Positions 1,363 to 5,599 of a DNA stretch of 40,766 nucleotides are shown here, in pieces. This DNA is from Candidatus Bathyarchaeota archaeon (lineage in GTDB: Archaea > Thermoproteota > Bathyarchaeia > RBG-16-48-13 > JAGTRE01). Below the pieces are notes generated by a model. It was given only the letters and a program-made list of their open reading frames with translations, had not been told where the DNA came from and did not search any database. How positions within the stretch are numbered: the stretch's first letter is position 1; the number at the start of each line of letters is the position of its first letter. The translations under genes were made by a program, and so were the position numbers. The stretch spans positions 1 through 40,766 of the forward strand of contig JAGTRE010000011.1 in assembly GCA_018396415.1 (NCBI GenBank). The letters run 5' to 3'.

Positions 1363-1624
1363 AATTTCTCTTGGTTTAAATCAATGGAAGAGCCCACAGG
1401 AAATTCTTGTTTTACGGTTTAAAGATGCCGATGGCTTACGTGTATTAAAGAAAACATGCAAAATCTCGCTAAATTAAAATCGATTTTGCATTAATTCCGC
1501 TAACATTTCCATAGCGATAGTAAAAGAGAGTAAGCTGATTAGGTAAAAGCAAATTCGAATAAGCAAAGCAATTCGTAAATGATCGTGGTGGGCCGGGAGG
1601 GATTTGAACCCTTGACCTTTCGGT

Positions 1625-1639
1625 CTCTGCAACATTGCT
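1625..1639 (-). other. tRNA-Ile intron at position 37/38
   Basis: Fifteen bases (AGCAATGTTGCAGAG on the minus strand) lie between A37 and A38. Removing them restores a 7-base loop CTGATAA closed by TTCGG/CCGAA. The expected central helix pairs 3 of 4 positions (CTG with CAG), so the motif is slightly relaxed. The very short length is within the range known for archaeal tRNA introns. Confidence 0.8.
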
Positions 1640-1663
1640 TATCAGCCGAACGCTCTAACCATG

Positions 1664-1694
1664 TTTCCCAGTACCGGAGTTAACCGAGTTACTT
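1664..1694 (-). other. tRNA-Ile D-loop intron (boundaries approximate)
   Basis: Between GCTCAG and GGTTAGAGC the minus strand has far more bases than a D-loop allows. A helix AGTA/TACT inside the insert continues into CTC/GGG pairing with the D stem, giving a relaxed bulge-helix-bulge. Cutting after G15 and before CAT leaves the D-loop AGCATGGTTA of normal length. A neighbouring register (1665-1693) pairs slightly better but leaves an oversized loop. Confidence 0.65.
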
Positions 1695-1735
1695 CTGAGC
1701 TACCGGCCCAGTCAATCTTGAGAGTTATGCTAGCC

Positions 1736-1835: not shown

Positions 1836-1850
1836 ACAAAATATTTAAAT
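1836..1850 (+). promoter_or_regulatory. tRNA-Ala promoter (BRE/TATA)
   Basis: ACAAA at 1836-1840 is followed by ATATTTAAAT at 1841-1850, a strong archaeal BRE/TATA pair. The predicted start about 25 bases downstream falls at about 1871, just before the tRNA at 1874. Confidence 0.6.
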
Positions 1851-1898
1851 CAACAGTTATTTCTTTCGATGATGGGCCGGTAGCTCAGCTTGGTATGA

Positions 1899-1937
1899 AT
1901 GACGCCCCTTCCCAGCTGTGGAAAGGTGTCAGTATTA
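1899..1937 (+). other. tRNA-Ala D-arm intron
   Basis: The inner helix TGACGCC (1900-1906) pairs with GGTGTCA (1925-1931), and TTCC/GGAA extends it after a small internal loop. The central helix GTAT (1893-1896) pairs with GTAT (1932-1935) with two G-U wobbles. The 3-nt bulges are GAA (cut after 1898) and TAG (cut after 1937). Joining rebuilds the D stem GCTC/GAGC. The outer helix is weak, so this is a relaxed bulge-helix-bulge. Confidence 0.8.
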
Positions 1938-1951
1938 GCGTCCGGTTCGCA

Positions 1952-1972
1952 AGATGCGATAAAATCCGAAAA
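1952..1972 (+). other. tRNA-Ala intron at position 37/38
   Basis: The central helix TTCG (positions 32-35, 1946-1949) pairs perfectly with CGAA at 1967-1970. The bulges are CAA and AAA, and GAT/ATC forms the short inner helix. Cuts after 1951 and 1972 leave the loop TTCGCAA between TCCGG and CCGGA. This is a canonical archaeal intron. Confidence 0.88.
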
Positions 1973-2068
1973 ACCGGAAGGCCGCGGGTTCGAATCCCGC
2001 CCGGTCCATCACGTATCCCCCGTAATGTTTCAACAACTTCAAAACTTTCATGTAGAGGAATAGTTTAC

Positions 2069-3014: not shown

Positions 3015-3140
3015 ATGGGGATTAAAAAATGGCTTCCCACCTACGCGTTTAACCTAAACATACATCCTTATGTACATCGAAAAGTTTTTCATATCATCTC
3101 AAACCGTTTCAAACAAGCTAAGAGGTGCAATTACTGGTGA
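3015..3140 (+). CDS. Possible 41-residue small ORF upstream of valS
   Basis: ATG at 3015 (GTG at 3012 is also possible) is preceded by GTGAGG with good spacing. The frame runs 41 codons and its TGA (3138-3140) overlaps the GTG that I choose as the ValRS start, making a GTGA stop-start overlap. The product is basic and aromatic (MGIKKWLPTYAFN... to ...KRCNYW) and matches nothing I recognise. It may be a real small protein or leader peptide coupled to ValRS, or a chance frame in a 165-base spacer that must also hold the ValRS promoter. Confidence 0.25.
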   Translation: MGIKKWLPTYAFNLNIHPYVHRKVFHIISNRFKQAKRCNYW

Positions 3141-5599
3141 TTAAACCGCTTCCAAAGTCATATGACTTCCGAACAATTGAGCCGAAATGGCAGAAGAAAT
3201 GGGAAGAAGAAGACATCTACAGATTCGATTGGAATGATAAAACCAAGCCAACCTACTCCATAGATACACCTCCACCTTACCCATCCGGCGAGTTTCATAT
3301 GGGAAATGCTCTGAACTGGTGTTACTTTGACTTTGTAGCTCGTTATAAGCGAATGCGTGGACATAATGTTTATTTTCCTCAAGGCTGGGACTGCCATGGC
3401 TTACCAACAGAAGTACGCGCTGAAAAAGTATTCAACATAAAAAAGGGTGATTTACCCCCGGGAAAATTTATAGAACTGTGTATTAAGCTCACCACTGAGT
3501 ATATCGAGAAAATGAAGACTACCATGAAAAAAGTCGGTTATTCAATCGATTGGCACCTAGAATATCGAACAATGAATCCTGAGTATTATCGAAAAACGCA
3601 GCTTTCATTCATCCTCCTATACAAGAGGGGGTACCTTTACAGAACTGAACATCCGGTCAATTGGTGTCCTCGATGTGAAACCGCTATAGCTGAGGCTGAG
3701 GTCGAGTACGTCGAAAAAAGGGGTGAAATGGTTTACATAAAATTTGCAACAGAAGTTGGAAACCTATTGATCGCGACAACTCGTCCAGAACTTATTCCCG
3801 CATGCGTTGGCATCGCAGTTCACCCCGATGACCAAAGATATGTAAAATATGTTGGGAAAATGGCGGAGATCCCCCTTTTCGGTAGAAAGGTTCCAGTTCT
3901 TACAGATGAAAACGTCGATCCGAAGTTTGGCACCGGAGCGGTAATGATTTGCACTTTCGGCGACAAGACTGATGTTCACTGGCAAAAACGGTATAACTTG
4001 CCAGTGATTAAGGCAATAGCTGAAAACGGCCTTATGACTGCCGCTGCGGGAAAATATGAGGGTCTAACCCTCGAGGAAAGTAAGAAAGCCATAATCGCTG
4101 ACCTTGAAAAGGCTGGTTTGATTGAGAAAAGGGAGCCGCTTTCCCAAAGGGTAGGGACATGTTGGCGATGCCACACCCCGGTTGAGATTATTTCAAAACT
4201 TCAGTGGTTCATGAATACACGTGCTTTGGCGGATGAAGTGGTAGCGTGGACTGAAAGAATTAATTGGATACCCGAATTCGCGAAGTATCGTATGCTTGAT
4301 TGGACTCGATCTTTAGATTGGGATTGGGTGATTTCACGTCAAAGAATTTTTGCCACTCCGATTCCAGTTTGGTATTGCAGGCAATGTGGAAATACAGTAG
4401 TTGCTGAAGAAACGTGGCTTCCTATCGACCCGAGAACGACGAAACCAAAAGATCTTAAGTGCCAGAAATGCGGCTCAAATGATTTTATCGGGGAGAGCGA
4501 CGTTATGGATACTTGGATGGATTCTTCGATTACGTGCGCTGTCCACGCCGGATGGCCGGATAATCTTGAAAATTTCCATCGCTTATTCCCAGCTGACCTG
4601 CAACCTAATGGGACCGATATTATTCGCACTTGGGACTATTACCTGATGGTTCGGCACTTAGCTCTTTTCGGGCAGGCTCCCTACAAAGTTGTCCTAATCA
4701 ACGGTATGGTTCGAGGTACAGATGGAAGAATGATGCATAAGTCTTATGGAAATTACGTTGAGGCACAAGAAGTAATCAGCAAATACGGCGCTGACGCCCT
4801 TCGGCAGTGGGCTGCCGGAGGAGGCGCGACTGGCTCAGACATTCCATTTAGATGGGAGGATGTCGAATATGGATGGAAATTCATCATAAAATTATGGAAT
4901 GCTGCAAGATTCGCTAGCCTTCAATTGAGAGACTACAATCCAAAGGTTGAAAAAGTAGAACTTACTCTCCTAGATAAATGGCTTATCAGCAAACTTGAAG
5001 AAACAACAAAAAATGTTACGGAAGCATTTGAAAACTTTCAATTTAATCTTGCCATCGAAGCTATACGAACGTTCACTTGGCACATCCTTTGCGACCAATA
5101 TATCGAAACTGTTAAACACCGATTATATCGTCCAGAACAACATGGAGAGAAAAGCCGAATAGCCGTTCAATACACGTTATACCACGCAATTCATAGGGTT
5201 CTTCAACTCCTAGCACCAATATGTCCACACATCACTGAAGAGCTCTATCAGTTAATTTACGCCGAAGAAAAAGGCTATACGAGCATTCATTTATCACCAT
5301 GGCCAACAGTGAATGAGGCGCTTATCGATAAAACTGTTGAAGAGCAGGGAAATCTTGTGATTACGGTTATCGAAGAGATCCGGCGAGCAAAGGCCAAAAA
5401 TAAATTACCATTAAACGCTCCGATTAAACGACTAGAGATCCTCGCCGAAGACGATAAAGATGCTGAAACTTTAAGAAGAAACGCAAATGATATTGCAGGC
5501 ACGTGTAAAATTGGTGAGTTAAACATAAGCATGGGTAAAGAAGAAACAGGATTCCCGGTAGAAGGCTATCCCACTATTCGGTTCCTCATTGAACTTTAA
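3137..5599 (+). CDS. valS: Valyl-tRNA synthetase
   Basis: This class Ia aminoacyl-tRNA synthetase attaches valine to tRNA-Val. The HIGH motif is HMGN near residue 55, after PPPYPSGEF. The inserted CP1 editing domain follows, with zinc-type CxxC pairs (CPRCETA, CWRCHTP, CRQCGN, CQKCGS). The KMSKS region reads MMHKSYGN near residue 535: the second Lys and the Ser are kept, but the first Lys is Met. The DWDWVISRQR and AAGGGATGSDIPF signatures are typical of ValRS. I choose GTG at 3137 because AGAGGTG at 3121-3127 is a strong ribosome site 9 bases upstream; GTG at 3125 would lie inside that site. It ends at 5599, overlapping the convergent aRF1 gene by 4 bases. At about 820 residues it is a compact archaeal form. 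Confidence 0.97.
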   Translation: MIKPLPKSYDFRTIEPKWQKKWEEEDIYRFDWNDKTKPTYSIDTPPPYPSGEFHMGNALNWCYFDFVARYKRMRGHNVYFPQGWDCHGLPTEVRAEKVFNIKKGDLPPGKFIELCIKLTTEYIEKMKTTMKKVGYSIDWHLEYRTMNPEYYRKTQLSFILLYKRGYLYRTEHPVNWCPRCETAIAEAEVEYVEKRGEMVYIKFATEVGNLLIATTRPELIPACVGIAVHPDDQRYVKYVGKMAEIPLFGRKVPVLTDENVDPKFGTGAVMICTFGDKTDVHWQKRYNLPVIKAIAENGLMTAAAGKYEGLTLEESKKAIIADLEKAGLIEKREPLSQRVGTCWRCHTPVEIISKLQWFMNTRALADEVVAWTERINWIPEFAKYRMLDWTRSLDWDWVISRQRIFATPIPVWYCRQCGNTVVAEETWLPIDPRTTKPKDLKCQKCGSNDFIGESDVMDTWMDSSITCAVHAGWPDNLENFHRLFPADLQPNGTDIIRTWDYYLMVRHLALFGQAPYKVVLINGMVRGTDGRMMHKSYGNYVEAQEVISKYGADALRQWAAGGGATGSDIPFRWEDVEYGWKFIIKLWNAARFASLQLRDYNPKVEKVELTLLDKWLISKLEETTKNVTEAFENFQFNLAIEAIRTFTWHILCDQYIETVKHRLYRPEQHGEKSRIAVQYTLYHAIHRVLQLLAPICPHITEELYQLIYAEEKGYTSIHLSPWPTVNEALIDKTVEEQGNLVITVIEEIRRAKAKNKLPLNAPIKRLEILAEDDKDAETLRRNANDIAGTCKIGELNISMGKEETGFPVEGYPTIRFLIEL

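Follow-up and report, generated by a model that had tools for sequence, protein, structure and literature searches.

A Bathyarchaeia tRNA-Ala(CGC) gene with a predicted D-arm intron between positions 23 and 24, and the D-arm introns of related alanine tRNA genes

The locus described here raises the question of whether a tRNA-Ala gene with an interrupted D-arm encodes a functional tRNA, and how its insertion relates to the D-arm introns of other archaea. It lies in a stretch of 40,766 nucleotides (the window, contig C11) of genome G000, a 1.39 Mb assembly in 30 contigs that is 96.3% complete. The closest named records to the ValRS encoded in the window are Candidatus Bathyarchaeota MAGs, at 63%, and the organism is therefore placed in the class Bathyarchaeia. 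On the minus strand, positions 1-1098 belong to a 16S rRNA gene that extends beyond the window edge (Rfam). The alanine gene spans positions 1874-2008 on the plus strand and is matched by the Rfam tRNA family RF00005 over its full 135 nt (model positions 1-71) with 42.6 bits, the gathering cut-off being 29; ARAGORN, run on the window, did not call it. The motif AATATTTAAA (1840-1849, plus strand), 25-34 nt 5' of the tRNA, is on sequence a possible TATA box.

A first-pass annotation of this DNA had read the gene as a tRNA-Ala(CGC) with one intron in the D-arm and one at 37/38, observing that the 3' D-stem strand GAGC is missing from the unspliced D-arm and proposing that a 39-nt intron is removed between GA and GC to leave a 75-nt product with G3:U70. 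The missing strand is evident from the sequence, and the remainder of this reading is borne out by Rfam, by the sister and related genes described below and by a splice solver of our own, which scores the BHB motif and the cloverleaf jointly. The solver sometimes turns one intron into two nested ones with the same product, and the solution with the fewest introns was taken. It placed introns at 1899-1937 and 1952-1972 and returned a product of 75 nt with anticodon CGC and G3:U70, in which the D-arm reads GCTC...GAGC. The predicted exons on the plus strand are 1874-1898 (mature positions 1-23), 1938-1951 (positions 24-37, with the anticodon at 1948-1950) and 1973-2008 (positions 38-73); according to the solver and the flank sequence, CCA is not encoded at the 3' end. 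The G3:U70 pair is an alanine identity element, and together with the NGC anticodon of the spliced sequence it assigns the product to tRNA-Ala.

The 37/38 intron (21 nt, 1952-1972, plus strand) sits at the canonical position and has a 4-bp central helix TTCG/CGAA (1946-1949 with 1967-1970), 3-nt bulges CA↓A (1950-1952) and AA↓A (1971-1973; arrows mark the predicted junctions) and an inner helix GAT/ATC, and its length, helix and bulges are exactly as first annotated. When the cuts were held fixed, 7 of 20,000 letter shuffles reached 4/4 central and at least three inner pairs. The D-arm intron (39 nt, 1899-1937, plus strand, between positions 23 and 24) likewise has two 3-nt bulges and a 4-bp central helix at its junctions, as the definition of a BHB asks. 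The exon strand GTAT (1893-1896) faces an intron strand GTAT (1932-1935), with the four pairs G.U, U-A, A-U and U.G, so that both terminal pairs are G.U, and the bulges are GA↓A (1897-1899) on the 5' side and TA↓G (1936-1938) on the 3' side. Inside them the solver, the fold and the comparison with relatives give a hairpin at 1900-1931 (arms 1900-1906 and 1925-1931) with a helix of 7 bp, TGACGCC/GGTGTCA; with cuts fixed, 4/4 central and at least six inner pairs occurred in 2 of 20,000 letter shuffles. Only two pairs, one of them G.U, make up the outer exon helix, and the D-arm BHB is therefore of a relaxed form; the strict hBHBh' form, as defined in the part of PMC7714728 available to us, calls for two or more Watson-Crick pairs in the outer helices.

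The sister genes in the same genome provide a template for the spliced D-arm. In the Ala(GGC) gene (L008) the 18-nt D-arm GCTCAGCTTGGTATGAGC is uninterrupted and identical to that predicted for spliced Ala(CGC), and the Ala(TGC) gene (L006) has an uninterrupted D-arm, GCTCAGCTCGGTATGAGC, that differs from it by one base. Both sister genes have an intron elsewhere according to the solver, at 45/46 in the GGC gene and at 37/38 in the TGC gene. Intronless 75-nt Ala genes with a like D-arm layout are found in other Bathyarchaeia. A pattern for the 5' half of tRNA-Ala matched three sites in G000, those of Ala(CGC), Ala(UGC) and Ala(GGC), among the matches listed, and by this pattern the genome therefore has one gene per alanine anticodon. 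The first-pass annotation had named another intact Ala(CGC) gene, combined with a lack of expression of this one, as a finding that would speak against its reading, and no second such gene was found by this pattern among the matches listed.

Taken together, these data favour the interpretation that 1874-2008 is the single functional tRNA-Ala(CGC) gene of G000, with a non-canonical 23/24 and a canonical 37/38 BHB intron that would be spliced by an alpha-beta endonuclease, and we assign this interpretation a probability of about 0.93. The exon boundaries, the motifs, the sibling and related genes and the enzyme genes on which it is built come from sequence and comparison; from these we infer that the gene is expressed, cleaved and ligated, and in what order the steps would occur. 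It might be argued that the true junction of the D-arm insert is slightly shifted, so that splicing would give a longer or differently paired D-arm. On paper the solver allows, for example, a 37-nt intron with a 77-nt product, and a product with GAAC scores higher in a position-only profile. With such cuts the BHB is weakened or lost, having few inner pairs or a central helix of 3/4, or else the C11:G24 pair is broken, whereas the 23/24 cut yields the very D-arm present in the sibling GGC gene and works in eight further genes, so that we consider another junction improbable. The position-only profile, built from 39 intronless Ala genes, favoured other cuts by up to 5.7 bits (107.7 versus 102.0) and left the 75-nt product of the 23/24 cut outside its top six; pairing does not enter into this profile, and its best product accordingly has a C11-A24 mismatch. 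Having failed to pick the right junction, the profile was rejected as a junction finder.

The weakness of the D-arm BHB in isolation, where the minimum-free-energy fold of the precursor pairs up its 3' bulge, could also be taken to mean that an insertion broke the D-arm and is left unspliced there, the gene being a pseudogene or a decayed copy. The T-arm and acceptor are intact, however, the 37/38 intron is canonical, this is the sole CGC gene that the 5'-half pattern revealed, and an insertion is found at the equal place in seven families with changes that preserve the hairpin. We therefore regard decay as highly improbable.

If the gene is a functional one spliced at 23/24, the D-loop nucleotides 19-21 (GUAU) of the precursor would pair with the GUAU in the 3' part of the D-arm intron, and the intron would close its own hairpin, which would leave two 3-nt bulges. 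A heterotetrameric endonuclease may then cut both D-arm bulges as well as the 37/38 BHB, and the exons would be joined by a ligase, presumably RtcB, the D-stem GCUC/GAGC forming only after this joining, as in the sister tRNAs. The candidate enzyme is encoded by two separate PF01974 genes, alpha (L031, 193 aa) and beta (L032, 178 aa). The alpha product is similar to crenarchaeal alpha subunits (2cv8 is the best match, at 1.1e-40; 3p1z_B, 3.1e-40) and retains the Tyr/His/Lys triad, whereas in the beta product Ala replaces the His of the triad, as expected of a structural subunit. The alpha product also contains a loop, PKPR, whose KPR aligns with K44-P45-R46 of Aeropyrum pernix 3p1z_B, and thus has the equivalents of K44 and of the basic residue 46. 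As far as the available text of the cited papers goes, K44 is conserved in the Crenarchaea-specific loop and this loop is tied to broad specificity (PMC12397907, PMC6379350), and a basic residue at 46 is conserved there as well (PMC12397907). In its two subunit genes, its alpha triad and loop residues and its beta subunit without the His, G000 resembles the crenarchaeal (alpha beta)2 endonuclease with this loop as portrayed in the same portions of these papers (A. pernix 3p1z; PMC12397907, PMC6379350), the resemblance here being known from the genes. On this basis an (alpha beta)-type endonuclease that carries a broad-specificity loop is predicted for G000.

It had further been proposed in the first-pass annotation that D-arm introns are uncommon and mark lineages with such an enzyme. 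G000 does have the genes for it, but D-arm introns turned out to be frequent in the Ala genes of one half of the class, and the loop is not confined to their carriers. PF01974 was matched in 28 of the 29 genomes searched, and the triad and a K-P-K/R loop were present in 27/27 aligned alpha subunits, 12 of them from genomes with a CGC gene lacking a D-arm intron. With the loop in all these alpha subunits, including those of lineages without D-arm introns, the introns therefore do not mark the enzyme; the Crenarchaea-specific loop is compatible with D-arm introns and not predictive of them. Beta-subunit scores, taken from the second PF01974 gene of 24 Bathyarchaeia genomes other than G004 and G006, fell into two groups that follow the tree: approximately 45-58 bits in the half rich in Ala D-arm introns (11 genomes of families f6, f14, f18, f19, f21 and f23) and 76-88 bits in the 13 genomes of the other half. 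The catalytic subunit hardly changes, and it would seem that intron content cannot be predicted from the type of endonuclease alone.

Within its own genome the Ala(CGC) gene is not exceptional. Of 31 Rfam tRNA matches in G000, the 21 that cover the full gene, the Ala gene of the window among them, were solved, and the ten left out were partial or odd or, in one case, without a locus. At least one intron was needed in 18 of the 21, the three genes solved without an intron being Val CAC, Pro TGG and Leu CAG. D-arm introns besides that of Ala(CGC) were seen in tRNA-Leu(UAG) (L018 1501-1634; G000:C4:121296-121429), with introns of 32 nt in the D-loop and 17 nt at 37/38, and in a tRNA-Ile(GAU) of the window (1589-1709, minus strand) that lies between the 16S rRNA gene and the Ala(CGC) gene and has a spliced length of 75 nt. 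The latter has a 31-nt D-loop intron after position 15 (1664-1694; central helix with 3/4 pairs) and a 15-nt 37/38 intron (1625-1639), and was called neither by ARAGORN nor by Rfam at gathering score. Given these other D-arm introns and an intron-rich tRNA set, the Ala(CGC) case is therefore ordinary for its genome. In L034, L035, L143, L150, L153 and L158, too, such an Ile gene lies near the Ala gene. When the D-arm intron of Ala(CGC) was compared with 22 other introns of G000, no notable similarity was seen (best z 1.5). Elsewhere in the genome, on contig C5, the intron near 25/26 of Val(GAC) (L020) resembles the anticodon-stem intron of Leu(GAG) (L022), with a local score of 11 and a z of 7.6 against 100 shuffles, the best of 253 pairs; the likeness of these sequences might possibly reflect intron transposition inside G000.

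A strict search pattern written for an intron at 23/24 picked out nine genes. They come from 8 of 256 Bathyarchaeia genomes, belonging to families f1, f4, f5 (two genomes), f7, f18, f19 and f23, and a reversed control pattern gave no match. A looser version of the pattern, run on 398 sampled genomes of the phylum, matched just two, G000 and G032, which are both Bathyarchaeia. The 5' bulge GA↓A and the exon strand GTAT are constant in the nine genes, two of which (both from G013) have one identical intron, and the intron strand is GTAT in five and GTAC in four. The pairs that close the inner helix vary on both strands: the first pair is UA in six and CG in three, the second GC in six, GU in two and AU in one, and the third AU, GC or CG in two each and unpaired in three. 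The inner helix is broken early in G004, G006, G003 and G032.

Three adjacent D-arm sites are in use among the alanine genes of the class. We classified 132 genes (124 Ala, 7 Ile and 1 other), and 62 of the Ala genes have no D-arm intron. The CGC genes comprise 14 with an intron at 21/22, 7 at 23/24 and 30 with none; the UGC genes 22 at 21/22, 1 at 23/24 (to which the UGC gene of G013, found later by the strict pattern, adds one) and 23 with none; and the GGC genes 12 at 21/22, 6 at 22/23 and 9 with none. These counts are a sample and no census, as they rest on 117 of 256 genomes fitting one 5'-half pattern, among the matches listed; the loci were an initial 30, a further 80 stretches picked by eye for genus spread (three of which came from matches of an earlier search) and the loci of the earlier search. 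The counts include six corrections made by eye: L209 is a CGC gene with a 23/24 intron, L040 and L041 are 21/22 and L162 is 22/23, all three with 3/4 central pairs, L243 is a CGC gene without a D-arm intron, and L220, with a CAC anticodon, is not Ala. The L034 entry that reads CTC is a tRNA-Ile gene. Along a common D-loop the BHB register differs from site to site: mostly TGGT or CGGT pairing with GCCR/GCTG for 21/22, GGTA with TACT for 22/23 and GTAT with GTAY for 23/24. In the sampled families f10 (with the exception of G176), f13, f20, f22 and f25, the absence of a D-arm intron is the rule.

The two G013 genes, Ala(CGC) and Ala(UGC), share one 22-nt D-arm intron that is equal letter for letter, but are unlike in the anticodon arm and the 37/38 intron. 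The flanks of these genes (L034 and L286) also agree, over about 13 nt on the 5' side and about 15 nt on the 3' side. Judged from the sequences, the shared intron may be due to a duplication or to a two-tract gene conversion. We infer, with less assurance than for the splicing itself, that D-arm introns can be copied between isoacceptor genes.

How old the 23/24 intron is was considered on an aRF1 tree, a single-gene, midpoint-rooted tree of 29 genomes matched out of 30 asked (G083 was unmatched), of which 25 were labelled; the 23/24 label of G003 was taken from its UGC gene, and G018, G078, G007 and G014 were left unlabelled. The tree puts G000 with f7/f8, outside its order by taxonomy codes. 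The three D-arm states require four changes on it, a count that does not separate gain from loss, and 23/24 appears on both sides of the midpoint root. This would fit an intron that is old in Bathyarchaeia and was lost or replaced by 21/22 in several families, which we hold with some reserve. With splicing as described, the 23/24 introns may instead stem from repeated independent insertion at a hot spot rather than from an ancestor. Their sequences diverge widely outside the motif, the adjacent sites 21/22 and 22/23 are in use in other lineages, the CGC genes of family f18 have both 21/22 and 23/24, and the identical CGC/UGC intron of G013 demonstrates copying, and against these points stand the small number of changes and the position of 23/24 on both sides of the root; we consider repeated insertion a serious possibility that falls somewhat short of an even chance. 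A fuller history of an ancestral intron can be proposed very tentatively, and we think it rather unlikely to be correct in all its parts: the D-arm of tRNA-Ala would be an intron hot spot of long standing, the 23/24 intron would have been present in an early member of Bathyarchaeia, its site would later have shifted by one or two nucleotides at a time (23/24, 22/23, 21/22) through re-registering of the BHB central helix along the near-invariant D-loop, and copying among CGC, UGC and GGC genes would have been followed by loss in the intron-poor half of the class, with the broad-specificity endonuclease retained.

Non-canonical tRNA introns in archaea are known to include D-arm introns, as the accessible part of PMC12397907 states, and 673 non-canonical introns in 217 archaeal genomes are reported in that of PMC8450103. 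Short introns away from 37/38, together with a canonical intron in one gene, liken Ala(CGC) to the Thermoproteales and other non-canonical BHB introns, with up to three introns per archaeal tRNA gene (Sugahara 2008, as related in the portions seen of PMC4090602 and PMC8450103). The sites named in the available text of PMC4090602 are 20/21, 22/23, 25/26, 29/30, 30/31, 45/46, 53/54, 56/57 and 59/60, in an open list that ends in 'etc.', whereas the site here is 23/24 and the lineage Bathyarchaeia. The nearest parallel in position is tRNA-Thr(GGU) of Caldiarchaeum subterraneum, which according to the excerpted text of PMC3293823 has introns at 24/25 and 45/46, and so shares with Ala(CGC) a D-stem intron, there one nucleotide further on, a second intron and an intron-rich genome; however, the tRNA differs, and the gain was in that case ascribed to an integrated mobile element. 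The G013 genes recall the intron transposition of Thermoproteales (Fujishima 2010, as cited in the available parts of PMC4090602 and PMC4033280), where near-equal introns are found in different tRNA genes of one genome, although in G013 the genes are isoacceptors of one amino acid and their flanks are partly alike, so that duplication or gene conversion is possible. In the open-access literature, which formed the scope of our search, no paper on Bathyarchaeota tRNA introns was found. Taken alone, the Ala(CGC) gene is one more archaeal non-canonical tRNA intron, and the pattern in its relatives is more useful: three adjacent D-stem sites, intron-free sisters, one intron in two isoacceptors and the probable antiquity of the 23/24 intron are what make the case interesting. 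This set of alanine genes makes the gain, movement and loss of BHB introns testable in one well-sampled class.

ValRS (window positions 3125-5599) was dropped as a species marker in favour of aRF1. Its matches form a close group and a distant one, and there seem to be two distant ValRS types in Bathyarchaeia, with 56-66% and 37-45% identity to that of the window. The groups suggest either two ValRS types or transfer, and genome G230 has one ValRS match in each identity range.
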